Shown: positions 657 to 26,848 of the stretch, one piece after another
Numbering within the stretch: the first letter of the stretch is position 1
Layout: each line of letters begins with the position of its first letter
Origin: a virus
Reading direction: 5' to 3' (one strand)
IMG/VR virus record: IMGVR_UViG_3300010368_000086
Location: 1-26,848 of that record
DNA: 26,848 nucleotides
Position numbers and translations under genes: made by a program
The notes under the pieces: generated by a model
The model's input: the letters and a program-made list of their open reading frames with translations, nothing else
What the model was told of the DNA's origin: nothing
Databases searched by the model: none

Positions 657-692
657 ATTGGTAAGTAACGACAAACTTATTAGGGTTTGCTA

Positions 693-2753
693 ATGGCCGG
701 ACTGACATTCTTACGCGTAGTACCTAACTCAGAGCTAGTTAAACAGGAGAAAGCTACGGCTGATGCTGAGCTTCAGGCGCGTCAGAACCAACCGCTGATC
801 CTTGGTATAACGGCGTACTTAAAAGAGTGTTGGGAAGCAGCACGGGTGGCTAAACGACCCCTTGAAGATAGAATGCTAAAGGCTATGCGCCAGCGTAACG
901 GCGAGTATGAACCTGAGAAGCTACAAGCTATACGTACTCAGGGTGGGTCAGAAGTCTTTATGATGATAACTGATGTCAAGTGCCGAGCCGCAGAAAGCTG
1001 GCTGCGTGATATTTTGTTAGATGAAGGCACACCACCGTGGAGTATGTCACCCACTCCACTCCCTACTCTTGACCCTACTACAGTGCAGGAGATACAAGAC
1101 GGATTCTCGCAAGAAGTAATCAGGCTACTCGAAACAACCATGCAGGCACCAACCCCCGAGGAGCTGCGTGAAATAAAAGAAATGGTTGCGCAGGACTACA
1201 GGTTCAAGATCTTACGAGAAGCACAAAACCGCACTGATGGTATGATACTTAAAATCAAAGATCAGTTTGCTCAAGGTGGTTGGCCCGAGGCATTTAACGA
1301 TTTTATCACAGACTTAGTTACCTTCCCTTGTGCTTTTGTTAAAGGGCCGATAGTACGCCGTCAGCGTACACTCAAGTGGGAAGTAGATCCAACCACAGGC
1401 AAGACTAACCCTGTAGCCGCTGAAGTTATTGCACCTGAGTACGAGCGTGTTGACCCATTCCATATCTACCCCGAGCCCGGCATAACCAACTTTGCTGACG
1501 GCTATCTATTCGAACACCACAAAATGCCACGGGCTGAGCTTGCTGACCTGATTGGTGTACCCGGCTATGATGACGATGCTATTCGCAAAGTGCTTGAGAT
1601 CGGTAATGGGCAGAGCTGGATCAGTGATGCGTACGAAATGGCTAAGGATGAGGAAGAGTCTAAGTACTACACTGAGATGCGACCCACCGAAGTGTTTGAT
1701 GCCCTAGAGTTTTGGGGGTCTATAAGCGGAGAGATGCTGATTGAGTGGGGCGTGGATGAAGCAGAGATTGACGACCCTGCTAGGGAATATGATGCTAACG
1801 TATGGATAGTTGGCAACTACGTAATCAAAGCGATCCTGAACTACGACCCTCTTGGTGAGAAGCCATACAGTAAAACATCTCTGTTCAAAGTCCCCGGTGC
1901 GTTTTGGGGTCGCGGTATACCAGAAGTTATCGAAGATGTGCAGGGCGTATGTAACGCAGCTGCCCGCGCACTGGTTAACAACATGGGCATTGCGTCAGGC
2001 CCACAGGTCGAAGTCAATGTCGAGCGCATACCACCTAACGAAGATATCACCAACCAGTACCCTTGGAAAATCTGGCAGGTTACAAACGATCCTGTGGGGT
2101 CAAGTGCGCCTGCGGTTAGATTCAACCAGCCCAACGACAACGCGGCTACATTAATTGGCGTGTACGAAAAGTTTAGTATGCTTGCTGATGACCACTCAGG
2201 TATCCCTGCGTATGTGTCGGGCAACATTGATGTTCAAGGCGCTGGCCGAACAGCATCCGGTTTGTCAATGCTCATGGGGTCTGCTGGTAAAGGTATTCGG
2301 CAAATCGTCATGCACATCGACAGCGATATAATTAAACCTATTGTACATCGGCAGTACGTATACAACATGCGTTACGATACAGACGAGTCAATTAAAGGCG
2401 ACGTACAGATCCAGCCCCGTGGTACAGTCAATCTGGCGATTAAAGAGACTGTTAACGTACGTAGGATTGAGTTCCTCAACGCGACAGCCAACCCGATTGA
2501 CGCTGAGATCATTGGTAAAGAAGGCCGCTCAGCTATCCTCAGGGAAGTTGCTAAGGGGCTACAGATGCCTGTCGACGATATTATTCCTTCGAGAGAGAAG
2601 GAGTTATACATGCTTCGATCAGAAGCAAACATGGCTGCACAGCAGGCGCAAGCCCAAGCGCAACAGCCAACACCAACGCAGCCTGACGGCACTCCGAAAG
2701 GGGGAATGCAGGCTAACACGGTGATGAACCGTGACACGGGGGGTGCAGGGTGA
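693..2753 (+). CDS. Portal protein
   Basis: A 686-residue protein, close in size to P22-type portals (about 725 aa) and longer than T7 gp8. The dodecameric portal sits at one capsid vertex, nucleates assembly, and is the channel for DNA entry and exit. The family look is clearest around residues 405-445, where GAFWGRGIPEVIEDVQG is followed by CNAAARALVNNMGIASG. Recall of phage portals supports this, and so does the gene order portal-scaffold-capsid. The C-terminus is Gln/Ala/Pro rich (AQQAQAQAQ) and probably flexible. I chose the ATG at 693, preceded by AGGG at 682-685, over the in-frame TTG at 687. Its stop overlaps the GTG of the next gene as GTGA. Confidence 0.88.
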   Translation: MAGLTFLRVVPNSELVKQEKATADAELQARQNQPLILGITAYLKECWEAARVAKRPLEDRMLKAMRQRNGEYEPEKLQAIRTQGGSEVFMMITDVKCRAAESWLRDILLDEGTPPWSMSPTPLPTLDPTTVQEIQDGFSQEVIRLLETTMQAPTPEELREIKEMVAQDYRFKILREAQNRTDGMILKIKDQFAQGGWPEAFNDFITDLVTFPCAFVKGPIVRRQRTLKWEVDPTTGKTNPVAAEVIAPEYERVDPFHIYPEPGITNFADGYLFEHHKMPRAELADLIGVPGYDDDAIRKVLEIGNGQSWISDAYEMAKDEEESKYYTEMRPTEVFDALEFWGSISGEMLIEWGVDEAEIDDPAREYDANVWIVGNYVIKAILNYDPLGEKPYSKTSLFKVPGAFWGRGIPEVIEDVQGVCNAAARALVNNMGIASGPQVEVNVERIPPNEDITNQYPWKIWQVTNDPVGSSAPAVRFNQPNDNAATLIGVYEKFSMLADDHSGIPAYVSGNIDVQGAGRTASGLSMLMGSAGKGIRQIVMHIDSDIIKPIVHRQYVYNMRYDTDESIKGDVQIQPRGTVNLAIKETVNVRRIEFLNATANPIDAEIIGKEGRSAILREVAKGLQMPVDDIIPSREKELYMLRSEANMAAQQAQAQAQQPTPTQPDGTPKGGMQANTVMNRDTGGAG

Positions 2754-4031: not shown

Positions 4032-4970
4032 ATGAGCTTTCCAGTAGCTTCAGGCCGTGTAAACTATAGCGGCAACTTCATCCCCGAAATTTGGTCGGGT
4101 AAATTGATCGAGAACTTTTACGATGCGACTGTACTTGCTGCAATCGCTAACACTGACTACGAAGGTGAGATCCGAAACATGGGTGACACGGTTAACATCC
4201 GTACCACTCCTGAGATCACTATCAAGGACTATGTAAAAGGCCAAGCTATTCAGGTCGAAAACCCTGACAAGCCTAAGATCCAGTTGCTTATCGACAAAGG
4301 TGAGTACTTCGCTTGCGTTGAAGACGACATTGATCGGGTTCAGTCAGATATCAAATTGATGGACACTTGGTCTAAAGACGCATCTGAGAAGATGAAGATT
4401 AAGATTGACCAGCGTGTATTAGTCGATATGCTACCTGACATCTCTGCGATCAACAAAGGCGCTGCTGCCGGTCGTATTAGCCAGAGCTTCAACTTAGGTA
4501 CTTCAGGCAGCCCTGTGGCTGTTACTAAGGACGGCGCTTCAAGCACTACTCCTGTCGTTGACCTTCTGGTCGATATGGGCACAGTACTTGACGAGGCTAA
4601 CGCACCTGAGTCAGACCGCTTTGTTATTATCCCAGCACGTATGGCGGGACTGATTAAGAAATCAGAACTCAAAGATGCTTCTATTACTGGTGATTCTATA
4701 TCTCCACTCCGTAATGGCCGCTTGGGTATGATTGATCGGTTCACAGTCTATGTATCGCACAACTTGAACGTAACAGGTTCAGGAACTGGCGCTAAGTACG
4801 ACATCGTTGCTGGACACAAGATGGGCTTTACTTTTGCTTCGCAAATGACTGAGATGGAAACTTTGCGTTCAGAAACAACTTTCGGCGATATCATCCGTGG
4901 CCTGCAAGTATACGGCTACAAAGTGACTAAGCCCGAAGCTCTTTCTACTGCGGTAGTAACCTTAGGTTAA
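4032..4970 (+). CDS. Major capsid protein (HK97 fold, P22 coat-like group)
   Basis: A 312-residue protein with a strong AAGGAG site before the ATG at 4032. It is the expected main shell protein. Features recalled from this coat family are visible: an early EIWSGKLIENFYDATVLAAI helix, a GDTVNIRTTPEITIKDY strand region near residues 52-68, and an internal segment near 195-205 (DRFVIIPARMAGLIKK). The C-terminal region has VAGHKMGFTFASQ and RGLQVYGYKVTKPEA, typical of the axial domain in HK97-fold coats. There is no N-terminal prohead protease delta domain, consistent with use of a separate scaffold. It is followed immediately by a UACG-loop hairpin. Confidence 0.88.
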   Translation: MSFPVASGRVNYSGNFIPEIWSGKLIENFYDATVLAAIANTDYEGEIRNMGDTVNIRTTPEITIKDYVKGQAIQVENPDKPKIQLLIDKGEYFACVEDDIDRVQSDIKLMDTWSKDASEKMKIKIDQRVLVDMLPDISAINKGAAAGRISQSFNLGTSGSPVAVTKDGASSTTPVVDLLVDMGTVLDEANAPESDRFVIIPARMAGLIKKSELKDASITGDSISPLRNGRLGMIDRFTVYVSHNLNVTGSGTGAKYDIVAGHKMGFTFASQMTEMETLRSETTFGDIIRGLQVYGYKVTKPEALSTAVVTLG

Positions 4971-5541: not shown

Positions 5542-6168
5542 ATGGCCACTAGCCTAACAGGATTAACCATAGCAAGTACGTATGCGCAGCTACTGCATAT
5601 AGACGCTGGGCCTACTGCGGTTGAGAAGACACTGTATAGTGGCACAGGAGTGGCAACTGCACTAAAACTAAGTACAGACTCAGCTTCAGTAGGTAACATA
5701 CGGCTATCCGGCAATACCATCCATACGCTAGATACTGACGGCAACCTAGTATTAAGTCCAGACGGTACAGGGGCCGTGGTCGCAGCCAAAGTAGATATTA
5801 ACGGCGGCACGATAGATGGCGTGGTTATTGGTGACAGCACCGCCGAAGCAGGCGCGTTTACTTCTTTGAGTGCTAACCATCTTAATGAGGGCGTATACGA
5901 ACTCACAGGTACTGACATAGACGCCACTAACGGCTCTATCCAATACAAGACCCTAGCTGCTACTACCACTTTTACTGAGTCACTGACTAGCGGTGATAAC
6001 GTCCTGCTAAGGATTTCAGGGGCCAACACATATCCTGTAACATGGCCGACGATGACGTGGGTAACACCCGATGGAGACCTTGCCCCTGCTTTAGTCGGGG
6101 ATGACGTTGTAGTTATCTGGAAAGAAGGGACTACTGTTTACGGCGCATATGCAGGGAACTATTTGTAA
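5542..6168 (+). CDS. Tail fibre-like / virion structural protein
   Basis: A 208-residue Thr/Ser/Gly-rich, beta-repeat-type protein. Residues about 45-115 contain short strand-turn units typical of trimeric phage fibres, including LSPDGTGAVVAAKVDINGG and TIDGVVIGDSTAEAGAFTSL; the INGGTIDGxxIG...AGxFTSL pattern is one I recall from many phage tail fibre proteins. The C-terminus (VWKEGTTVYGAYAGNYL) looks like a compact beta cap. It may be a connecting fibre or a base for the large adhesin, whose start codon overlaps its stop as TAATG. The ATG at 5542 follows AAGAGGA. Host receptor contact is inferred, not shown. Confidence 0.65.
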   Translation: MATSLTGLTIASTYAQLLHIDAGPTAVEKTLYSGTGVATALKLSTDSASVGNIRLSGNTIHTLDTDGNLVLSPDGTGAVVAAKVDINGGTIDGVVIGDSTAEAGAFTSLSANHLNEGVYELTGTDIDATNGSIQYKTLAATTTFTESLTSGDNVLLRISGANTYPVTWPTMTWVTPDGDLAPALVGDDVVVIWKEGTTVYGAYAGNYL

Positions 6169-8525
6169 TGCTCTATAAGAATTTATTGTCGGCGGCAGGG
6201 AACGCTTCGTATGATATTGAGCATTCTTTGCGTTTTAATAGATTTGGTAGCCATTACCTGACACGAACACCGAGTGTAGCGGGCAACCGCAGAACTTGGA
6301 CATGGAGTGCATGGGTAAAACTATCTAAGATATCCGAAAACCGTACATTGTTTTACGCTACTAGCACCGGGGCTAACGACGACATCTACTTCTATATTGA
6401 TAACGGCAACAAGTTTAGACTATATACACCAGACGGGAGCCCGACTGTAGGTATTAGCTTTGTAGAATCAGTTGTTTGGAGTCATATAGTAGTTGCTTTT
6501 GATAGCACGCAAGCCGACGCTAACGACAGGGTACGGCTGTATCTTAATGGTTTGGAAATATCTACAGTCAATAGCCCTACCCTGAATAAAGAATATGCTA
6601 TGAACGCTACGACTGAGCATACCATAGGGGAAAAAGCGAACACCTCAAATGAATACTATGACGGGTATATGGCTGATGTTCACTTCATTGACGGACAAGC
6701 CTTAGGGCCAGAGTATTTCGGTAGACCTAGTGACAACAAGCTTATCGGATGGGTTCCTAAGAGATACAACGGTTCATACGGTACTAATGGGTATTTCCTA
6801 GAGTTCGGAAATAGTGCGGCACTAGGTAATGATACAAGCGGTGGAAACAATAATTGGACCACGGGTAACGTAGCGTCCTATGACCAGATGCTAGACACAC
6901 CCACAAACAATTTCTGCGTACTCAGCACATTCGATTCGAAAAATAGCGCAACCATTTACGAAGCTGGTTTAGCCGCTAACACTAGCGGAATTGATGGGTT
7001 TATAAAATCTACATTCTCTGTAGGGACTGGGAAGTGGTATTGGGAAGTGCGGGTCGCCACTCTAAACAATACGGCAATGATAGGCATCGCTACAATTGAC
7101 CAAGATCCAATGGCTGCCCCACTACTTAATCCAAATCTAATCGCTGTAAATGGTGCGGATGGGAACATATATTACGATGGGGCTGACCAAGGCGCTTATA
7201 TGAGCCCGCTCGTCAACGGCGACATAATAGGCATAGCTATTGACTTAAATGTCGGGCAAAGAACAATTACTTTCTACAAGAATAATGTTTCGCAGGGAGT
7301 GGTATCTACTACCATATCGTCCGAAACGGGTTGGACACCAACGCTAATTAACCGACAAGACAACTTCACCAGCAGTGTTGCGAAGGTAAATTTTGGTGCC
7401 GACTCATCATTTTCAGGCGAGGTCACGCGCCAGTTTAACCCCGACTATCTCGGAAGGGGGGATTTTTATTATACGCCTCCAAATGAACACCGAGCGATTA
7501 CTGCTAATAGCTTTAAGGGATTAGTCTACGAAGAACTCGACAAGCCGCAAAACTACTATACTGTTCTTACCTTCAATGAAAGTACTAACCCCCTAAGCGT
7601 AAAGAGTTTTGCCCAAAACCTATACCCTAACGAACTTGCAGTTATTAAAGACTATGAAACGTCGGGAACAAACTACCAATTATTAGATTCTTTACGCGAT
7701 CCAGACTCGGCGTTTCATACAGACACTGCTTCCCTCGAAGAGCCCTATGTTGCACCTATTAGCTTTAATTCAATAGCTTGGATCTGGAGGGCAGGAGATG
7801 GCCCCCCTGTTGGTAGTACTTATGGGACTGTACCTTCTATCCACTCTGTTAATGATATAGGAACTTTTAGTATTGTACGGTGGACAGGTACAGGAGAGAT
7901 ACTTGGTACTGTAGAGCATGGGCTACCCTCGATTCCCGAGATGATGATCGTTAAAGATCTGGATAACGTATCAGCGCCAGCGTATCAGTATGTTCGGGCC
8001 TCCGGTCTGCCGAGCGTATGGGGGTATTGGTCAACGCTTGGCGGTGTTTTTCAAAGTAATCCCTTTGGTCCACCACCAACACCCCCTGATACGCTTACTT
8101 TCCCCGTAGGAGAAACTTTTGATGCTACTTCACTAAATACATTAGGGCATAGATACGTTGCTTATCTATACAACAGCAAGTTTGGGTACTGCGATTTCGG
8201 TACGTATACGGGAACTGGTTTTCCCTACCCTAACTCTTACGAGCTGATTCTCGGCTGGACCCCAAGTTCTTTCATGGTAAGAAGGGTACAGCGAAGCGAC
8301 GCAGTATTGGTCTCTGACCAGATTCAGATGCACAATAGTAGGAAACTTGGCAAATCTATAAGGTGGAGTTCAAGCGCTGTCGAAACGAACCTCCAAGTTT
8401 ATTTTATGTCAGACAGGCTCTTCCAATCAGGTGAATCTTCGGCAGGTGTAAACTATAACAATGCGGGCGATGTATTTTGGTATGGTGTATGGTCAGCTAC
8501 TCCGAGCGGCGGAGCGTTTTTGTGA
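6168..8525 (+). CDS. Large adhesin with LamG-like and SPRY-like lectin domains
   Basis: A 785-residue virion adhesin. Residues about 35-180 look like a LamG/concanavalin-type jelly roll: RTWTWSAWVKL, then DRVRLYLNGLEI near 120-131 and GYMADVHFIDGQAL near 166-180. Residues about 275-400 look like a SPRY domain, with TGKWYWEVRV, then NGDIIGIAIDLNVGQRTITF followed by YKNN. From about 530 to the end is a third beta-rich region (SIAWIWRAGDG; VEHGLPSIPEMMIVKD) that I recall as a common C-terminal module of phage tail proteins of unknown function. Such stacks bind cell-surface glycans or proteins and decide host range. Its ATG overlaps the previous stop, and a small chaperone-like gene follows. No depolymerase active site is evident. 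Confidence 0.78.
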   Translation: MLYKNLLSAAGNASYDIEHSLRFNRFGSHYLTRTPSVAGNRRTWTWSAWVKLSKISENRTLFYATSTGANDDIYFYIDNGNKFRLYTPDGSPTVGISFVESVVWSHIVVAFDSTQADANDRVRLYLNGLEISTVNSPTLNKEYAMNATTEHTIGEKANTSNEYYDGYMADVHFIDGQALGPEYFGRPSDNKLIGWVPKRYNGSYGTNGYFLEFGNSAALGNDTSGGNNNWTTGNVASYDQMLDTPTNNFCVLSTFDSKNSATIYEAGLAANTSGIDGFIKSTFSVGTGKWYWEVRVATLNNTAMIGIATIDQDPMAAPLLNPNLIAVNGADGNIYYDGADQGAYMSPLVNGDIIGIAIDLNVGQRTITFYKNNVSQGVVSTTISSETGWTPTLINRQDNFTSSVAKVNFGADSSFSGEVTRQFNPDYLGRGDFYYTPPNEHRAITANSFKGLVYEELDKPQNYYTVLTFNESTNPLSVKSFAQNLYPNELAVIKDYETSGTNYQLLDSLRDPDSAFHTDTASLEEPYVAPISFNSIAWIWRAGDGPPVGSTYGTVPSIHSVNDIGTFSIVRWTGTGEILGTVEHGLPSIPEMMIVKDLDNVSAPAYQYVRASGLPSVWGYWSTLGGVFQSNPFGPPPTPPDTLTFPVGETFDATSLNTLGHRYVAYLYNSKFGYCDFGTYTGTGFPYPNSYELILGWTPSSFMVRRVQRSDAVLVSDQIQMHNSRKLGKSIRWSSSAVETNLQVYFMSDRLFQSGESSAGVNYNNAGDVFWYGVWSATPSGGAFL

Positions 8526-8541
8526 TGTTAGGAGATTATCT

Positions 8542-9027
8542 ATGTTTGTAAAAGTCAGTAATGGGGTCGTTGAGGAATACCCATATACACTTAGCCATCT
8601 TAAACGAGATAACCCCAATACCTCGTTCCCCTCAAGTATGAGTGATGCGATACTAGCTAACTACAGCCTAGAGCGCGTGGTGTTTACGCAAGAGCCAGAC
8701 ATAGACCATAGAACACAGACGCGCAAACAAGACACAACGCCTACCCTAGTAGACGGGAGGTGGACTATAGGCTGGTCGGTTCATGACAAAGACCAAGCGC
8801 AGATAGAACTGGAATATAGAGATAAAGCTTATCTATTGCGGGAACAACGCGATTATTTATTGGCTAAATCTGACTGGACTGCCTTGTCTGACTCGCCGCT
8901 GACTGAAGAGAAGCGAGCTGAGTGGGTAACCTATCGACAAGCTTTGAGGGATATTACTGCGCACGCAGACTTCCCATATACTAAACTACCGGCTGCCCCC
9001 AATGCGGGAGATATAACTGATGGCTAA
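8542..9027 (+). CDS. Tail fibre assembly chaperone-like protein
   Basis: 161 residues from the ATG at 8542, which has an ideal AGGAG 8 bases upstream; the longer in-frame start at 8461 lies inside the adhesin gene and was rejected. Residues about 93-150 (LREQRDYLLAKSDWTALSDS, then TEEKRAEWVTYRQALRDI and FPYTKLP) match the pattern of the phage tail assembly chaperone domain found at the end of many fibre assembly proteins. The N-terminal part (VEEYPYTLSHLKRDNPNTSF) resembles the start of the same group. It probably helps fold or trimerise the adhesin encoded directly upstream; it could instead be a short virion component. It overlaps the next gene by 8 bases. Confidence 0.75.
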   Translation: MFVKVSNGVVEEYPYTLSHLKRDNPNTSFPSSMSDAILANYSLERVVFTQEPDIDHRTQTRKQDTTPTLVDGRWTIGWSVHDKDQAQIELEYRDKAYLLREQRDYLLAKSDWTALSDSPLTEEKRAEWVTYRQALRDITAHADFPYTKLPAAPNAGDITDG

Positions 9028-9705: not shown

Positions 9706-9971
9706 TGAGTGGAAAATATCTAAGAAACACGGCTGATGGGACTATCTATGATTGGCACCCAATCCTTGCGAACAACCCTAAATGCGAGGAAGTAACTGAG
9801 GAAGAAGCATATCCTGAACGCTTTGTTAAGCCTGAAGCTGTGAAGAAAGTACGCAAGACACGTGCGCGGACTAACACTAAATTAGACTTGACAACTACTG
9901 ACATACCAGATGATCCAGTATATACTCTGGATGAGCTTAATGAGGAAGCATCGAGAGGGCTGCCCGAGTGA
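9705..9971 (+). CDS. Small hypothetical protein (88 aa)
   Basis: Not recognised. The 88-residue product starts SGKYLRNTADGTIYDWHPIL, a segment that looks like a small beta domain common in phage structural regions, then has a basic patch (KKVRKTRARTNTK, about residues 45-57) and an acidic C-terminus. There is no membrane segment and no cysteine pair like its upstream neighbours (one Cys only). It is fully coupled: ATG within TAATG of the preceding gene, and its TGA overlaps the GTG start of the first adaptor paralog. A small head-completion or tail accessory role is possible from position. Confidence 0.65.
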   Translation: MSGKYLRNTADGTIYDWHPILANNPKCEEVTEEEAYPERFVKPEAVKKVRKTRARTNTKLDLTTTDIPDDPVYTLDELNEEASRGLPE

Positions 9972-10609
9972 CACCAAGTAGTGTAATAACTGAAGTCAGA
10001 GACCTAATTCAGGACAACGGATCTTCGCTTCGGTATAGTGATACTATCCTACTTAGGTTTGTCAATCAAACCCTAAAGCGTATGGCTATGCTACGCCCTG
10101 ATTTATTCTCGATCACCGCAGATATTACAACTACACCCAATGTGTCTGAACAAGAGCTACCCAGTGCAGCAGTACGACTGGTAGAGATCTTCCGTAACAA
10201 AGATGGCACCTCGATTGAAGAAATAGGACGGGATCTATTTGACCGTACGTACCCTCAGTGGACTACAGACCCTGCGGGGGTGCCAACTAAGTATATTAGG
10301 CATTCACGTAACCCACGTAGGTATTTCCTATACCCTCGTCCTGCTGTAGATACCGTGCTTGTGGGTGAATATATTACTACACCACCGACTTACACTATTT
10401 CTGAAACGATCTCAGTACTGCCTGACGTGTATTTACCAACTTTGGTCGACGGCACTGTCTACTTAGCTGAGTCTATAGACAACGAACATATTAACACTGG
10501 TAGGGCTAAGATGTTTTACGACTCCTTTGTTGAATCTTTAGGCGTATCTTTCCAAGCGCGTAGTATAACTGACAACGAAGATACCAACACAGGTCAACAG
10601 CGAGGCTAG
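9968..10609 (+). CDS. Head-tail adaptor-like protein, paralog 1 of 3
   Basis: 213 residues, GTG start at 9968 overlapping the upstream stop. It belongs to the phage adaptor-like family I know as DUF6682: an N-terminal helical bundle (TPSSVITEVRDLIQD, LLRFVNQTLKRMAMLRPDLF) followed by a beta part with YFLYPRP near residues 118-124 and a C-terminal helix. Adaptors of this kind form a ring beneath the portal that joins the head to the tail. It shares RPDLF, the xxYFLYPRP block and a DxYxPxxVxGxVY-like segment with the next two genes. This copy has RRYFLYPRP where the other two have NKYFLYPRP. Confidence 0.75.
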   Translation: MTPSSVITEVRDLIQDNGSSLRYSDTILLRFVNQTLKRMAMLRPDLFSITADITTTPNVSEQELPSAAVRLVEIFRNKDGTSIEEIGRDLFDRTYPQWTTDPAGVPTKYIRHSRNPRRYFLYPRPAVDTVLVGEYITTPPTYTISETISVLPDVYLPTLVDGTVYLAESIDNEHINTGRAKMFYDSFVESLGVSFQARSITDNEDTNTGQQRG

Positions 10610-10611
10610 GT

Positions 10612-11286
10612 ATGACACCAAATGATGTGATTGACAGCGCCAAGCGTATTCTACAGGACTCAAAGTTCTTGCGCACGCCTGATTCGTATTCAGCGTCTAC
10701 GCTACTAATCTTTGTAAACAACACAGTTAAACGCATGGTCATGGTTCGCCCAGACTTGTTCACTACTACAGACGATATCGCTACTACTCCTAACACTGTG
10801 TTGCAGACAATGCCTTCAGATTGTTTTAGATTGGTAGATATTTTTCAAGTGGTAGACGGCAATACCTTAGAGGAAGTTGATCGAGACCAGTTTAACCGCA
10901 CCAATAGGGACTGGGCTACTGAACCAGCGGCATCTCCTGTTAAGTTTATGCGCCACGCTCGTAGTCCCAACAAGTATTTTCTCTACCCACGGCCATCTTC
11001 AGGCATAGAGCTTGTTGCTGAGTATGTAAAGATACAGCCTATATACACGCTAAACGATACAATCTTAAACTTGCCAGATGACTATCTCCCGGCGCTAGTG
11101 GATGGAGTGGTCTACAACATTCTGTCTGTTGAGACTGATGAGAATAGCAGTCAAGTTGGTATGGCGCGGGCTAAGATGTTTCTTGATGGATTTAACCAAG
11201 CGTTGGGTATTTCGCTTCAGGCTAGAGTATTGTCGGATATCGAAGACGGCGCAGTAACACCACCATCTACGGAAGCTAGGCGATGA
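10612..11286 (+). CDS. Head-tail adaptor-like protein, paralog 2 of 3
   Basis: 224 residues, starting 2 bases after paralog 1 and overlapping paralog 3 by ATGA. The architecture matches its neighbours: MTPNDVIDSAKRILQD, FVNNTVKRMVMVRPDLF, PSDCFRLVDIFQ, NKYFLYPRP near residue 122, ELVAEYVK and LPDDYLPALVDGVVY. It has a longer C-terminal tail (VTPPSTEARR). The clear conservation of the same blocks over the whole length shows gene duplication. The copies differ at many positions, so the duplication is old and each copy has probably been kept under selection for its own place in the connector (inference). Confidence 0.75.
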   Translation: MTPNDVIDSAKRILQDSKFLRTPDSYSASTLLIFVNNTVKRMVMVRPDLFTTTDDIATTPNTVLQTMPSDCFRLVDIFQVVDGNTLEEVDRDQFNRTNRDWATEPAASPVKFMRHARSPNKYFLYPRPSSGIELVAEYVKIQPIYTLNDTILNLPDDYLPALVDGVVYNILSVETDENSSQVGMARAKMFLDGFNQALGISLQARVLSDIEDGAVTPPSTEARR

Positions 11287-11936
11287 CACCTAACGACATT
11301 ATCGAGGATGCGCGTAGGCTAGCGCAGGACAACGGACTGTTGCGTGTATCTGATACATACACTGCTGCGGCATTACTAGCCTTTGTGAATCAGACGATAC
11401 GGCAGGTTGCGTTAATACGCCCCGATCTTTTTGCTGTAATTACAAATATACCTACTACGGCGAATGTAGTTGAGCAGTCCATGCCTAGCGACTCTATGCG
11501 ACTGATGAATATATTTGGAGTAAAAGACGGTAGCGGCGTGGTAGAAGTAGATCGCCAGACTATGGATCGGGCGTACCCCCAGTGGAGAACTGATACCGCT
11601 GGAACGCCAGTAAACTACATGCGCCATGCGCAGAACCCGAACAAGTACTTCCTCTACCCACGACCAACAGCTGGTACTGAGCTTGTTGCTGAATACGCAC
11701 AGACTCCACCCATATATACACTCAGCGCAACCATAAACTTATTACCAGACTCATACCAACCTGTTATAGTATCAGGGGTAGTAATGTTGATCGCTGGTAT
11801 TGAGAATAACACCATTGATCCGAATCGGTACAAACAGTTTGAGGATTCTTTTAGACAAGCGCTTGATACGAATTTCCAGTCTAGGGTAGTGACGGACGTA
11901 AAATCAAGTGGTTTTGATCCTAAGCAGGTGATTTGA
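11283..11936 (+). CDS. Head-tail adaptor-like protein, paralog 3 of 3
   Basis: 217 residues, ATG at 11283 in an ATGA overlap with paralog 2. The same block order is present: MTPNDIIEDARRLAQDNG, FVNQTIRQVALIRPDLF, MPSDSMRLMNIFGVKDGSG, YMRHAQNPNKYFLYPRP, ELVAEYAQTPPIYTLS, LPDSYQPVIVSGVVM. It looks closer to paralog 1 in the N-terminal (QDNG) and YPQW segments and closer to paralog 2 around NKYFLYPRP and ELVAEY. That mosaic could reflect gene conversion or simple drift. Its TGA overlaps the ATG of the next connector-like gene. Confidence 0.75.
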   Translation: MTPNDIIEDARRLAQDNGLLRVSDTYTAAALLAFVNQTIRQVALIRPDLFAVITNIPTTANVVEQSMPSDSMRLMNIFGVKDGSGVVEVDRQTMDRAYPQWRTDTAGTPVNYMRHAQNPNKYFLYPRPTAGTELVAEYAQTPPIYTLSATINLLPDSYQPVIVSGVVMLIAGIENNTIDPNRYKQFEDSFRQALDTNFQSRVVTDVKSSGFDPKQVI

Positions 11937-12613
11937 TGGCTGATCGTGAGTTTGTTTCTTTTATACCTAAGATACAGCCCAGCGTACCGGGGTGTCCTCA
12001 GCCGTTGATACTACAGCACATCCGTGATGCTGCTATAAGAGCTTGCGAGCGCACTCTAGTGTGGCGGTACATGATACCCCTGTTTGATCTAACTCCCGGT
12101 GAGTACGAGTACACATTTAACGTACCGAGTGGTACGAAAGTACATGCAATTTTTGAAGCTATGGTCAATGGCAACCCACTTCAAAGACTTACTTTGGAGC
12201 AAGCGTTAGTTAAATACCCAGAATGGGCCGACCTGTACGACACTATTCCTTTTGATCCAGTGGCTGCTAAAGCCAGTCAGCCTCGCGCTATAACCCAGAC
12301 AACTCCTAATGAATTCATAATCTTACCGTTACCAGACGATGAAGATACCTATACAGTGCGAATGTTTACAGCACTGAAGCCTACCAAAACTGCTACGGGT
12401 ATCGAAGAAACAATTTTCGATGAGCTTGAAGACGCTATTATGCACGGTGCACTGCAACATCTACTACTGATACCTCAGGTACACTGGTCAGATTTAAACT
12501 TGGCGTCTTACCACGCTAAGCAGTTTGTTTACCACCTTGCTGAAGCTAGAGCTAGAGCTAATCTTGGGAACGTACGTGGCTCAATGTCTGTACGTATGCA
12601 GCCTTTTGCGTAG
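11936..12613 (+). CDS. Connector / tail protein (gp11-like position)
   Basis: 225 residues from the ATG at 11936, which overlaps the previous TGA; an in-frame TTG at 11933 is the only alternative. The N-terminal helix region (HIRDAAIRACERTLVWRYMI) and following beta part (GEYEYTFNVPSGTKVHAIFE, NEFIILPLPDDEDTYTVRMF) give an alpha-plus-beta layout like phage connector proteins. The C-terminal helix is Ala/Arg rich (FVYHLAEARARANLG). It follows the three adaptor paralogs and precedes lysis and nozzle-like genes, so I infer a second connector or tail-tube component. It may be a distant fourth member of the same fold, but the YFLYPRP block is replaced by IILPLP. Confidence 0.65.
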   Translation: MADREFVSFIPKIQPSVPGCPQPLILQHIRDAAIRACERTLVWRYMIPLFDLTPGEYEYTFNVPSGTKVHAIFEAMVNGNPLQRLTLEQALVKYPEWADLYDTIPFDPVAAKASQPRAITQTTPNEFIILPLPDDEDTYTVRMFTALKPTKTATGIEETIFDELEDAIMHGALQHLLLIPQVHWSDLNLASYHAKQFVYHLAEARARANLGNVRGSMSVRMQPFA

Positions 12614-12824: not shown

Positions 12825-12962
12825 ATGATGAAGAAAGGAATGAGCAAGCAAAAGACTATGGGTTATGCTAAAGGCGGCATGACGTTTAAGCCTTGCGCTA
12901 ACTGCCCCTCCCCTGCTAAGTGTAAGAAAGCAGGTAAGTGCTTGAAAAAAGCCAAGAAGTGA
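12825..12962 (+). CDS. 45-aa basic Cys4 microprotein
   Basis: A short gene (45 residues) between the membrane protein and the holin, with TAGGAGATTG upstream of the ATG at 12825 (a second in-frame ATG is at 12828). Its TGA overlaps the holin ATG at 12962. The product is very basic and has four cysteines at 24, 27, 33 and 39 (C-x2-C-x5-C-x5-C) in a compact C-terminal half, as in a minimal zinc knuckle. The N-terminus has GYAKGGM, a pattern common in small phage virion proteins. Good ribosome binding site, tight coupling and the Cys spacing support a real gene. Function unknown. Confidence 0.66.
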   Translation: MMKKGMSKQKTMGYAKGGMTFKPCANCPSPAKCKKAGKCLKKAKK

Positions 12963-13327
12963 TGGGAGTATTGGCCAAGATATTCGGCTCAGGTGAGGTA
13001 GTAAAAGCTGGTATAGATCTTATTGACTCACTGCATACGTCGACGGAAGAGGAGATCCAAGCCAAGTCAAAGGCGAAGATTGATCTTCTTGAGGCATATG
13101 CGCCGTTCAAAATAGCTCAGCGCTACTTGGCCGTTATGTTTACTGTTACTTTCCTAGCATGTTTTGTTTTGGTACTCACTATGACTCTGCTTGGTGAGGG
13201 TGATATAGACGCAGTGAAACAGGTATTAGGTGACTTTTATATTGGCGAGATCATGCTGACCATCGTGTTCTTCTATTTTGGTGGCGGCGCGTTTGAAGGT
13301 GTTTTACGCAACAGGGTAAAGAAATGA
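12962..13327 (+). CDS. Holin, 3TM gene-transfer-agent-type
   Basis: 121 residues from the ATG at 12962. An upstream in-frame TTG (12938) lies inside the microprotein gene, whose coupled TGA supports the later start. An N-terminal amphipathic region is followed by membrane segments at about 56-77 (LAVMFTVTFLACFVLVLTM) and 94-110 (IGEIMLTIVFFYFGGGAF). The AQRYLA start of the first segment and the FYFGGGAFEG end of the second fit the GTA-type 3TM holin family as I recall it. It would form membrane lesions that let the endolysin reach the wall. Its stop overlaps the endolysin ATG, a standard holin-endolysin arrangement. Confidence 0.75.
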   Translation: MGVLAKIFGSGEVVKAGIDLIDSLHTSTEEEIQAKSKAKIDLLEAYAPFKIAQRYLAVMFTVTFLACFVLVLTMTLLGEGDIDAVKQVLGDFYIGEIMLTIVFFYFGGGAFEGVLRNRVKK

Positions 13328-13680
13328 ACTACTTCTCTGATGATGAGCTACGATGCCAGTGTGGTTGCGGTAAGCTAGTCTTCGACCCAACCGTACGTAA
13401 TGCCCTTAATGCTATACGTAAAGAATACGGTAAGCCGATGGTTGTAAGCAGTGGGTATCGTTGCCCAGATCACCCTATCGAGGCTAAGAAGTCTAAGCCC
13501 GGTGAGCATACCACTGGTACGTGTGTAGATATTGCTTGTCATGGGTTTGATGCAGCGGCACTAACTAAGCTGGCACTAGAGAACGGAGCCACTAGAGTAG
13601 GTTGGAACCAAAAGGGCGCGTCTAGGTTCATACATCTTGGCTGGTCTAAAGAATATCCTAGGGGCACTTGGACATATTAA
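13324..13680 (+). CDS. Endolysin, M15 D-Ala-D-Ala carboxypeptidase-type
   Basis: 118 residues, a single-domain peptidase of the M15_3 type that cleaves peptide cross-links in peptidoglycan. Zinc ligands are visible in the expected order: His62 and Asp69 (GEHTTGTCVDIAC) and His104 (RFIHLGW); the conserved S-S-G-Y-R-C block is at 42-47. The N-terminus carries CxCGCG (11-16), which with Cys47, Cys67 and Cys72 gives an unusually Cys-rich enzyme. No signal peptide is present, so export depends on the holin encoded just upstream. The length is typical for this family. A virion-tail lysin is an alternative, since tail genes lie on both sides. Confidence 0.88.
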   Translation: MNYFSDDELRCQCGCGKLVFDPTVRNALNAIRKEYGKPMVVSSGYRCPDHPIEAKKSKPGEHTTGTCVDIACHGFDAAALTKLALENGATRVGWNQKGASRFIHLGWSKEYPRGTWTY

Positions 13681-13689
13681 GAGGTATGA

Positions 13690-16344
13690 ATGGCGGCAAT
13701 AAAGATAAACAAGTTTCTAGGGATAGCTCCGAAGATATCGGGTGAGTTACTACCTAATACTGCCGCGCAGATAGCCAAAAACTGCAAGCTATATTCAGGC
13801 GATTTGATACCCTACACGACTCCGCTAATAGTAGACAACAGCGGTGTAACTGGTACAACCAGAACTATATACGCCATGCGAGCTCCTAATACAGGGGACA
13901 TAGTGTGGCTAGCTTGGGATACTGATGTAGATATAGTATCGACTGCCGCAGGCACATCCGAAGAACAACGTATCTACTATACAGGCGACGGTGTACCTAA
14001 GGTAACTAACTATGCACTAGCTACAGATGGTGCAAAACCCTATCCGGTAAACTACTATAGCCTTGGGCTACCCTTACCTGATATAAAACTAGACACATAC
14101 CCAGTATCTACAGCCAACGTAGATAGCGTTAGCTACGCCAGAGACGCTGGTAATACTGCCACCATTGTAACGGCAGACCCACACGGATTTGTAAGTGGGA
14201 ACGTAGTCACTATTAGTGGGTTTGAAGCGTTTTCTGGTACGTATACGCAGTCGGGTTTTGCGGTTACTGTAGATACTGACGATGCTCATTCGTTCCAAGT
14301 TGGCGACCAAACCTTCGTAGAGTTTACATCGGGTGTTGCTATCAACGAAGTCCTTACTGTGACTATAGTTCATAACCCCAACAAGTTTACGGCTACGGGG
14401 TCTAACTCTGTTACTGCGTCTGGTAGTTGTATCTCAGTACGAGAGGGGTTTAACACAGTCAACTCAGAAATATCTGTAATCGACAACACCACGTTTACAT
14501 ACTATAGCCCCGGTATTCAAGTAGATACAACACTTGACGACACAGCAACTATCGCATTAGCAGGTAATACCCAAGCCCGGTCGTATGTCTTTACATGGAT
14601 AACTCCGTGGGATGAAGAGTCTATTGGTTCTGATCCTAGCGAAGAGATATTTATTAAGGAAGGTCAGATCGTTGGGGTACCTAATGTACCGAGTAACTAC
14701 GCTGGCGGTGGCAACTATAACATCCGTGGCGTGCGGCTCTATAGGACTATCCCCAGTGGATTAGGTACGGAGTACTATAAGCTAAACGACCTGTGGTTCC
14801 CCTCTACTGCGGCTACTATTTCTAGGGTATCGAATATAGTTACTGTCACCACCGCAGAGACACACAACTTTAACATCAATGATAAGTTCAGAGTTCGCAG
14901 CACAGTCGCCACGTTACAGATACTAGGCGGCACAGTTGTTACTGATGTCATAGATGACTATACATTTAAGTACACGCAAGTAGGTGCAGACTACTCAGGT
15001 GCAGTTGGCACTACCGTATACTATCACGATGTATCTGAGTCCGATGATGACCAAGCCCAGTATTTTGGTGATACTCAGGTAAACGGTATAACCCCCATAT
15101 CCACGTATGTGCAGTCAGGTACAGCCATAACAGTTACAACTACGTTCGATCATGGGTATAGCGTGGGTGATAGGGTGATACTCAACTTTATTACTGGTGT
15201 AGCTACTGATGATCTATACCAAATATATGATGTCCCTAGCAGCACTCAGTTTCGTGTTGACGCCAGTGCATCTTTCTCGACAAGTGGAGATGTATTTGTA
15301 GATAACTCGTCGTTTATAGACACGTTCAATCCCCTAGGTCTTACGGACATACTAATCACTGATGACTTTGATCCACCGCCGTCTAACTTGCAGGGCATTA
15401 TAGCTATACAAGACAACATTCTGGCGGGGTTTGTGGGTAACGAACTGTACTTCTCAGAACCTGCATACCCGCACGCTTGGCCTTTTAAGTATAAGATAAC
15501 GCTTGAGTATGAAATCGTTGCGCTGTCTGCTGTAGCTGGCTATTTGTTTGTCATGACCAAAGGATACCCATACCAGTTCTCCGGTGGTAATCCAGCGACT
15601 ATGGCGTTTGCTAGGATCGACACACTATATCCATGCCTATCTAAACGCAGCGTAGTAAACATGGGGTATGGTGCGCTATACGCAACACATGGCGGGCTCG
15701 CATTGTACTCTCCTATAAGTGGCGGTATGTTAATTACCAAACCGCTAGAAGACTGGGACACATGGAAAGTTTCGCTTGACCCAACCACGCTTAACGCACA
15801 GTTTTTTGACGACAAATACTTTGGTGTGCATAGCACAGGCGTAATTATATATGAGCGCGACGACCAAATTGGTGGAGTACTTACTACTTCTGACTACACT
15901 GCCAATGCGTTATACTATGACCCACAGTCGGGGAGATTGTTTTTTACCCAAGACGATGAGCCTGACATATATGAATGGAATAATCTCCAACAGGGCAATG
16001 ACATACTTGAGTGGAAGTCCAAGATCCTAGAGACCTCTGACTTCATAAACATAGGCGCAGCTAGGGTCATAGCTGACTACCCACCCGGTGGCCCTACTAC
16101 AATATGGGAAGACACTGGGGATGTCTGGAATGAAGAACAACAACTATGGAACGCTACTGACGGAATAACATTTAAATTCTGGGCTGATGGAGTTCTTGTT
16201 TCTACGCAAGCAGTAACTTCAAACAACATATTCAGACTGCCCACTGGCTATAGAGCTGACAAATTTGAGCTGTCTGTTACATCCGGCCTACGCATACGGG
16301 CTATACATATAGGTGAAACTCCCCTTGGGTTGAAGGATGTCTAA
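13690..16344 (+). CDS. Large tail protein, nozzle-like, with repeated beta modules
   Basis: 884 residues, almost entirely beta-rich. Residues about 148-225, 378-440 and 475-530 contain recurring units beginning H-[GSN]-[FY]-x-[VI]-[GN]-[DN] (DPHGFVSGN, DAHSFQVGD, ETHNFNIND, FDHGYSVGD) and followed by short strands, as in small Ig-like or OB-like virion modules. The C-terminal half (IIAIQDNILAGFVGNELYFS, then GYLFVMTKGYPYQFSGG and GALYATHGGLALYSP) looks like beta-propeller blades. Size, fold impression and position after connector genes suggest the tail nozzle or hub (T7 gp12-like role), which is inference. The ATG at 13690 follows AGAGG. The stop overlaps the next start as TAATG. Confidence 0.65.
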   Translation: MAAIKINKFLGIAPKISGELLPNTAAQIAKNCKLYSGDLIPYTTPLIVDNSGVTGTTRTIYAMRAPNTGDIVWLAWDTDVDIVSTAAGTSEEQRIYYTGDGVPKVTNYALATDGAKPYPVNYYSLGLPLPDIKLDTYPVSTANVDSVSYARDAGNTATIVTADPHGFVSGNVVTISGFEAFSGTYTQSGFAVTVDTDDAHSFQVGDQTFVEFTSGVAINEVLTVTIVHNPNKFTATGSNSVTASGSCISVREGFNTVNSEISVIDNTTFTYYSPGIQVDTTLDDTATIALAGNTQARSYVFTWITPWDEESIGSDPSEEIFIKEGQIVGVPNVPSNYAGGGNYNIRGVRLYRTIPSGLGTEYYKLNDLWFPSTAATISRVSNIVTVTTAETHNFNINDKFRVRSTVATLQILGGTVVTDVIDDYTFKYTQVGADYSGAVGTTVYYHDVSESDDDQAQYFGDTQVNGITPISTYVQSGTAITVTTTFDHGYSVGDRVILNFITGVATDDLYQIYDVPSSTQFRVDASASFSTSGDVFVDNSSFIDTFNPLGLTDILITDDFDPPPSNLQGIIAIQDNILAGFVGNELYFSEPAYPHAWPFKYKITLEYEIVALSAVAGYLFVMTKGYPYQFSGGNPATMAFARIDTLYPCLSKRSVVNMGYGALYATHGGLALYSPISGGMLITKPLEDWDTWKVSLDPTTLNAQFFDDKYFGVHSTGVIIYERDDQIGGVLTTSDYTANALYYDPQSGRLFFTQDDEPDIYEWNNLQQGNDILEWKSKILETSDFINIGAARVIADYPPGGPTTIWEDTGDVWNEEQQLWNATDGITFKFWADGVLVSTQAVTSNNIFRLPTGYRADKFELSVTSGLRIRAIHIGETPLGLKDV

Positions 16345-26600: not shown

Positions 26601-26848
26601 TACAGCTCACACCTAAAGAACGTGAGCGGTTGGTAACTGGTTTGACATCACAGAACGCCAAGGCTCGTACTCGTTTAGAGCGTGCCGGAACGCCGGGCGA
26701 AGATAAAGACATTGTGAAATATGTCTCTCAGCATTTGGAGTCTACTGCCAGCACAGTAGCACGGAAGGAAAACCGCCATCGTTTGGATACATTGTTCGAT
26801 GAGAATAGCGCCAACAGTAATAAGCTGTGGTACGGTGACGAGGCTACA
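20648..26848 (+). CDS. Giant virion protein with zinc-protease-like and PLxRFG-like motifs (partial, runs off window)
   Basis: Open from the ATG at 20648 (AGAGGTAG upstream) to the right edge: 2,067 codons without a stop, so the 3' end lies outside. Layout: Gly/Ala-rich hydrophobic segments at about 155-170, 218-252, 281-300 and 365-415 that could cross membranes; charged coiled coil about 559-625; Pro-rich linkers including (Thr-Pro)11 at 771-792; a basic patch RRKLKRKR at 878-885; a zincin-like motif HETLGHYGFRG with His1324, Glu1325 and His1329, and candidate third ligand Glu1375 or Glu1376 in TEEVLADMA; then a long helical region with SYIPFGREGAW (1874-1884), resembling the PLxRFG motif of phage polyvalent proteins. 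Probably an ejected, T7 gp16-like or polyvalent protein that opens the envelope or acts in the infected cell (inference). Confidence 0.72.
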   Translation, partial: MAKAGLSFQSPALQSMGYSVEEALDPYRYYNPTASVGTGGLQSSLADMAIEGQQLVEQTQFTMPSMRTPARPASPSVGIDPASGDLFVQGRRFSQQDAATALETEPLLDQPPTGLPEGFRAISPQAYRGFLQTIKDPDRGRLFSKSIDIGLANLKQIGGAALAFGGAEETGAQLMESAKERLRQLEPYQRTFTEIEDTDEFGDWFVANFGQQVPNILESVAAGLGGAVAGTMIGGPAGTVGGFFGGLLAKQGVKNAVTIAAKKKAEGIALDAAEKKLLNQVGGATAATLGSSYLFGVGDIYGEQLESGAPSRIGAALSAIPYAAADSLGELFIGARVLGGAGGRALRDIPTTRGKAGELLKRGGVGAGVGGVLEGTTEAFQETLLIANNPEVDIDSPEAINRLINSFAAGAAIGGPLGGAANVVAKRPQIKPTEESNLLNPDEEPNAASQELTPDLATPTDETIPIVTGIPGVGAGREQGVLNLFTDLPTEGPEALTQAELLDRMEPTEVGELRPVTAGLLEARPEMQIIPPVTPATEVSPQQGVLQFAEPPPPEQFGIEEGRTALRTALGEALARQRDSQLIAEEQAKAEAQREAELATMQRDATTARQLQIFEDAEATERLAERPTPVERPSAPLEERGPEQLPLDLRRGRLSKAQKKKGAKQLRKALREEAARVEETAQPEVTRESRQEFLRTAREAGQLPLLTLRGEPSAAAEGRPRAPRAPRAEQPAPTSGAMQGSAVTLRPEFVASLTPEERADLGIVDVTPEATPTPTPTPTPTPTPTPTPTPTPAVNPISQQILRDLPTYTDEDLQTLRGRLTLNAYGADVSNEVATTVIEELNRRRQPIPEVTPEVTPEVTPTQEAPADATQERKQPARRKLKRKRDDGVIQEDREARVEPTPVEEEGPRAGRGDSLKRGKKTEKEKVVQKIPRERTEPAAPAPAPAPTLEEEVTQIVEDWSDTRILDDSIETAETTRSVGEYELALYNVMEYAFTADSNMREQKLDTKANGFLNEIPRDDTFKSILLKLVRYKAGFAAVYEKGNNKGEFTPLFKAIVDAGVFKEAKRLATIRNLPPEFAEGGVSAPKTTKDKPINDARDNAERKLSDLISEVNGRTTIMPKAQRTQTIEKLTDLYDAVEDPDFDTPSGRTLSEFFNADGTPKVQIVNNKLRIVTKVLTEEQIRQQERDARMDIEALRAIEDDTLTLEDWNTYGIDVVIDEDLGDGRFFTDDGAPIRKSLPVGKVKMTVASFVKKLAKAPKVYIYKSQEDFQRRNPQLYGQAVAARPQGDFDTAPAVGYSFGKNNVIIFTDRVVTERQLKFVLAHETLGHYGFRGLMSERQLNAALDKIYNESQYIRDLADQAAEARNISKIEATEEVLADMAGSLDTNVIARFWNLIKNALNKVGIKFEDDYARYLVSQSRRYVRNGNISGQMFIPSEVGAAVQSFERMEDPLGSGRYSTSHYDSLGRIAGGYNNVGENGGITGTAEFFEQLNKYKVNAADFGEKVLSELKTMNFSARDNLGYRELFRILRDTVQKVNVLRNKYNHMMATALRPTGELFGFTFGQGATEAEINQAGEMLTVTSRVKLPAVTEEVLKNIPNLVQVVGGEARLDQEAFNELSKMGKFTIEDFQKGFTYEINVPRPMDDEGRAQITAERDAELAKTKDPKVIASINKEYQILLDADSYTATVEQEFPAIPDLAEDGNVWKIYNEVRDTMDQSAIDMLLANYAAASGERAKVQASIEGILGRRLTEGDKAFLQIVEDKFLELRNENSTVDNKGITVFNPDSVEKADEFMAAFNAAIIGKDTDRNATVAEYFDENQRDDVSTSINEFKEGASISGQNRFQIQQDIQNLALFELSSLDAERYAKRSIAGSYIPFGREGAWQVRMQAYDPTTGKVLKISEQWRQSLPYYQVENRHEAESLASRVTDLFDIEDGVKLEVLVDGEYRVMPVALRAEAETARQEVSVNTETNLNEVVSILNRFKVQLTPKERERLVTGLTSQNAKARTRLERAGTPGEDKDIVKYVSQHLESTASTVARKENRHRLDTLFDENSANSNKLWYGDEAT
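22958..23023 (+). repeat. Hexanucleotide repeat (ACACCT)11 encoding (Thr-Pro)11
   Basis: Eleven perfect, uninterrupted copies of ACACCT lie in frame inside the giant gene. Codon use is identical in every unit, which suggests recent slippage expansion. Because the unit is 6 bases, changes in copy number would lengthen or shorten the linker by two residues without a frameshift. The encoded Thr-Pro stretch should be extended and rigid. Confidence 0.95.
23192..23227 (+). repeat. 12-base tandem repeat encoding (PEVT)3
   Basis: Two perfect copies of CCCGAAGTTACC (23192-23203, 23204-23215) are followed by a third that differs at two bases (23216-23227, CCCGAAGTAACG). All are in frame and encode Pro-Glu-Val-Thr three times (residues 849-860). 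With the (Thr-Pro)11 repeat it brackets a helical block of about 55 residues. Confidence 0.9.

Follow-up and report, generated by a model that had tools for sequence, protein, structure and literature searches.

Three tandem head-tail adaptor paralogs and a distant fourth family member in an uncultured podophage, with a proposed stack of adaptor rings

The Ralstonia phage GP4 reportedly has two dodecameric adaptors, I and II, and its portal-tail complex (PDB 8jov) contains two different 12-copy adaptor-fold chains together with a hexameric nozzle. Podophage tails carry one to three dodecameric adaptors, with GP4 and crAss001 cited as cases (PMC11784390). The Kuravirus SU10, whose gp11 founded the PF24175 family (PDB 7z47), has a single adaptor ring, the neighbouring subunits of which differ in conformation (PMC9509320). 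In the gut crAss-like phage phi-crAss001, five stacked dodecameric rings are formed by four paralogous proteins (R1-R4) whose copy number varies among relatives; the tail barrel is proposed to lengthen with the number of rings, and the duplication behind R3 and R4 is recent and differs from one relative to another (PMC10172136).

Here we describe an array of adaptor genes in a stretch of 26,848 bases (the window), the IMG/VR virus record IMGVR_UViG_3300010368_000086 of an uncultured podophage from environmental DNA. Like SU10, it encodes adaptors of the PF24175 family and fold. Like GP4, it encodes an A-like adaptor, a D-like adaptor and a nozzle; GP4 has one A-like chain, whereas the phage studied here has three A paralogs.

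Four SU10_adaptor-family genes in a row

The first-pass annotation had described three consecutive intact genes of 213, 224 and 217 codons built from common blocks. Both the open reading frames and the alignment bear this out: c1, c2 and c3 align end to end, with 49-50% identity to copy 1 and many invariant columns, including the RPDLF and YFLYPRP motifs (Table 1). The genes are also closely spaced. There is a GTGA overlap between the upstream gene and the c1 start at 9968, a 2-base gap between c1 and c2, an ATGA overlap between c2 and c3, and a TGATG overlap between c3 and D. The same virus is represented by a second, independent contig (IMGVR_UViG_3300007540_000190), and the two differ at 1 of 10,639 bases, so the array is not an artefact of assembly.

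Table 1. Features of the window discussed in the text.
Feature	Position	Strand	Details
Portal protein	687..2753	+	PF23899 SU10_portal, 51 bits; phrog_332
Major capsid protein	4032..4970	+	phrog_267, E 6e-60
Adaptor copy c1	9968..10609	+	GTG start; 213 aa; intact ORF
c1 helix 1-helix 2 loop	10010..10042	+	Ancestral short RY type; distal pole kept; columns 17-25 match single-copy relatives in c1 only
Adaptor copy c2 (middle copy, only in triple-copy phages)	10612..11286	+	224 aa; intact ORF
c2 helix 1-helix 2 loop	10660..10692	+	3-residue insertion common to c3; distal pole lost (alignment)
Adaptor copy c3	11283..11936	+	217 aa; intact ORF
c3 helix 1-helix 2 loop	11331..11363	+	Same insertion as c2; distal pole lost (alignment)
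c3 C-terminal arm	11892..11933	+	...GFDPKQVI, like the GLDP[RK]QV[IV] end of many single-copy relatives; C-tail retention 0.77
Gene D (distant fourth family member)	11936..12613	+	ATG at 11936; listed TTG start 11933
Nozzle protein	13690..16344	+	PDB 8jov chain A, E 3.5e-55; phrog_511

Against the PF24175 SU10_adaptor profile (curated cut-off 27 bits), c1, c2 and c3 scored 91.7, 85.9 and 81.6 bits over 180-184 of 194 positions, and all three matched phrog_399. The next gene, D, also exceeded the cut-off (31.5 bits) and matched phrog_437. The window thus encodes four SU10_adaptor-family genes in a row: the three adaptor genes seen earlier are real, but the array is not limited to them. PADLOC gave no match for c1.

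The adaptor identity is further supported by AlphaFold2 models of c1 (pLDDT 92.4, pTM 0.84) and c2 (pLDDT 88.6, pTM 0.81). Different folds would have spoken against paralogy; instead, both models have the adaptor fold (helix bundle, beta dock domain and C-terminal arm), with the elements in the order helix 1, helix 2, beta domain, helix 3, helix 4 and a disordered C-tail. In both cases the best structural match was chain 2 of 8jov (c1: Z 20.0, rmsd 2.4 Å over 196 residues, 22% identity; c2: Z 18.8). It was followed by the adaptors of cyanophage A4, Pa223, KHP30, VP1, SU10 and N4-like phages. The Z scores were 13.2-13.6 for the SU10 adaptor and 8.5-9.2 for the ring proteins of phi-crAss001.

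The comparison with GP4 extends to the neighbouring genes. The c-type protein resembles chain 2 of the GP4 complex (12 copies), the product of gene D resembles chain G, that is gp81 (12 copies; E 1e-16), and the nozzle protein resembles chain A (6 copies). The window therefore has the adjoining A-type and D-type genes and the GP4-like nozzle of a GP4-type double-adaptor neck, with three A genes in place of exactly one. Gene D is present in nearly all single-A relatives whose contig extends far enough. The usual state of this lineage is thus two adaptor genes (A and D), and the phage studied here has four; the earlier assumption of a single adaptor as the rule for podoviruses does not hold here.

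Several other genes of the window deserve mention. A likely holin (a small protein of membrane type) and a likely endolysin (Peptidase_M15_3) are encoded at 12938-13680, after the adaptor genes and before that of the nozzle. At 6168-8525 lies the gene of a 785-aa fibre-like protein, residues 278-387 of which resemble the SPRY domains of eukaryotic SPSB3 and the ryanodine receptor (E 5e-4); downstream of it (8461-9027) is a protein with a Phage_tail_APC domain at its C-terminus (PF16778, E 1e-17). One frame is open for at least 2067 codons from 20648 to the window end at 26848; it contains a long proline-threonine repeat and probably encodes an internal virion or ejected protein.

Copy number and age of the copies

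We scanned IMG/VR viral contigs and sorted their open reading frames by HMM. Most loci have one A gene and D. The arrangement c1-c3-D was found in thirteen contigs, including 3300001605_000506, in which c1 lies in several frames, and c1-c2-c3-D in six, including the window's own virus and one contig that starts inside c1; one further contig ends inside c2. The gene order is always c1-(c2)-c3-D, and no contig scanned had four or more A genes. Among INPHARED records, tblastn found matches in 111 (c2 query) and 132 (c1 query), at one place in each, and six annotated phages examined as examples have a single A each. Since no isolate among the public phage records searched has a second A copy, the multi-copy state is known only from uncultured phages. 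Prokaryote genomes scanned with the c3 profile yielded no relative. As a separate observation, in the tail module of Aeromonas phage phiARM81mr the adaptor gene is closely followed by genes for a retron-type reverse transcriptase and a 23S rRNA-intervening-sequence protein (L119:8477-10110).

The maximum-likelihood tree of 87 proteins placed c1 (8 rows), c2 (4) and c3 (9) each in one clade with a bootstrap support of 100, and c1 and c2 were sisters (98/96). The three clades were recovered in a later, enlarged tree with more members and an outgroup (c1, 14 rows, support 93; c2, 5 rows, 100; c3, 14 rows, 100). As each copy forms its own clade across phages, the duplications predate the split of these phages. 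For ortholog pairs with a computable dS, dN/dS did not exceed about 0.2; synonymous sites were saturated in many pairs. The copies are thus old and maintained under strong purifying selection, which agrees with the selection suggested in the first-pass annotation.

The middle copy has a different history. On the tree of c1, c3 and D, its presence requires at least three to four changes, which means that c2 was lost or moved repeatedly; a two-copy phage (L088) groups with the three-copy phages L008 and L009. Missing as it is from close relatives, c2 is dispensable, at least over evolutionary time.

Decayed copies in close relatives would argue against a role for all three genes, and one broken copy was indeed seen. 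In 3300001605_000506, c1 is split over several frames (L138:4587-5243); the genes for capsid, scaffold and D in its vicinity are intact. In a second contig from metagenome 3300001605, it is D that is broken in the same manner, in three frames (L139:5642-6420), with c1-c3 intact, so indels introduced in that assembly are a more probable cause than decay; all other complete copies examined have open frames. Patchy c2 and the broken c1 would suit a redundant duplication that has no distinct function and is heading for loss, but we regard this as very improbable, given duplications older than the divergence of all these phages, the open reading frames under strong purifying selection and the signs of sequencing indels in the one exception.

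Two poles of the adaptor and the arrangement of the copies

Judging from the order of elements in the models, the loops between helices 1 and 2 and between helices 3 and 4 would lie at one pole of the adaptor, with the beta domain and the C-tail towards the other. In P-SCSP1u, residues 19, 20 and 24 of the adaptor are in contact with the nozzle, and its C-terminal embracing helix with the portal (PMC10575957). By alignment offset (model 1 = chain 5), these three residues fall in the helix 1-helix 2 loop. In SU10, the portal is likewise bound by C-terminal embracing loops of the adaptor (PMC9509320). By analogy with these homologs, which are about 10% identical, the loop pole presumably faces the tail tip, and the C-tail the head.

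The copies differ in which pole they have kept. Single-copy relatives agree with c1 only at 12 columns, all of them in the region of the helix 1-helix 2 and helix 3-helix 4 loops, and with c3 only at 8 columns, all in the beta domain or C-tail; there is one column at which they agree with c2 only. A Fisher test of this pattern gave p 8e-6, although the columns are not fully independent, and 1 of 222 circular shifts was as extreme. In a control, all ten single-copy clades had retained the loop pole better than the other pole (difference +0.03 to +0.23). Copies c3 (-0.35) and c2 (-0.22) break this rule and c1 (+0.23) does not; the head-side pole of c3 is the best retained of all (0.79). Further single-copy phages that were identified later (L212-L214) again had the short RY loop, the D[ND]EH motif and a long C-tail.

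These comparisons firmly indicate that the pole for docking on the tip side, kept in c1, is lost from c2 and c3. We also considered that both poles had been lost in a complementary way, an idea weakened by the control, as a portal-side retention like that of c1 also occurs among single-copy clades. The polarity pattern is thus only half strong: the portal-side loss in c1 does not exceed ordinary single-copy drift.

As paralogous subunits of a GP4/SU10-type head-tail adaptor, c1, c2 and c3 probably each form their own 12-subunit ring. These dodecamers would stack coaxially, together with D, between the portal and the nozzle, so that four adaptor rings in place of two would give a longer tail barrel. 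From head to tip, the A rings would follow the order c3, c2, c1, opposite to that of the genes, since the pole by which homologs dock to the tail-tip side is retained in c1 alone.

The first-pass annotation had left the choice between stacked rings and a hetero-oligomeric ring. The kept and lost surfaces and the precedent of phi-crAss001 favour the former. In a mixed ring, c1, c2 and c3 would co-assemble in fixed or random positions of one 12-subunit ring between the portal and D. Their identity of about 50% and the many common invariant residues mean that lateral contacts are possibly compatible, and the differing conformations of neighbouring SU10 subunits would fit such an arrangement. However, every subunit of a mixed ring would dock to the same tip-side partner, whereas c2 and c3 have lost that pole and c1 has kept it; moreover, c2 comes and goes among relatives without loss of c1 or c3. 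We therefore consider a mixed ring unlikely.

It is also improbable that only one or two of the copies form axial rings and that the others serve as an outer collar, as a fibre-attachment ring, in another virion role or in assembly only. The divergence of c3 and c2 at one pole might reflect such a relocation, and in related podophages (DEV, like GP4) a 15-subunit collar surrounds a 12-subunit adaptor (PMC10925440). On the other hand, the beta domain and C-terminal arm of c3 are better kept than in single-copy clades, which fits a continuing adaptor role. The collar of GP4 is reportedly described as a separate part that belongs with the fibre and tail, which also counts against relocated copies.

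Origin of c2 and meaning for tail evolution

The suggestion of a mosaic origin of c3 from c1 and c2 was not supported: whole-protein trees, segment trees and sliding identity speak against it, and c3 groups with its counterparts in other phages in a separate clade (support 100%). A chimeric origin, if there is one among the three, would concern c2, in its first ~30 residues. In the tree of the N-terminal segment, c2 joins c3 (SH-aLRT 88), whereas for the remainder of the protein it joins c1 (96, 92). Additionally, c2 and c3 have a 3-residue insertion in common and a similar loop (FLRTPD.YSAATLL vs LLRTPDTYSAA.LL). For c2 as a hybrid of c3 and c1, AU tests reject nothing and the shift test over residues 1-47 was not significant (40/222).

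A tentative and rather doubtful reading is that c2 is a plug-in spacer that arose by unequal crossing-over in a c1-c3 tandem. In this reading c3 would have supplied its first ~30 residues, with the inner-type loop, and c1 everything after them. A hybrid of this kind would have carried the two interfaces that face inwards from the moment it arose, and it could be gained or lost while the adjacent copies stayed as they were. If this is true, tail length would be changeable by single recombination events.

Should the stacked arrangement be right, the phage would resemble phi-crAss001. In both podophages, one genome carries several paralogous genes for ring proteins of the adaptor fold, here four SU10_adaptor-family genes in a row. 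The crAss paralogs differ in being 15-31% identical, in not forming one contiguous four-gene run and in being distant in sequence from the proteins studied here; stacking is proven there and proposed here. The portal, adaptor and nozzle of the window match GP4/SU10-type proteins and place the phage outside Crassvirales. The array represents a separate tandem duplication, with one-, two- and three-copy states in one lineage.

The finding corrects the view of a fixed adaptor set in GP4/SU10-type podophages and shows a multiplied head-tail adaptor gene in a second lineage of phages besides the crAss-like ones. Relatives with one, two and three copies and the same types of capsid, portal and nozzle form a natural series in which the evolution of tail length and of ring-ring interfaces may be followed.
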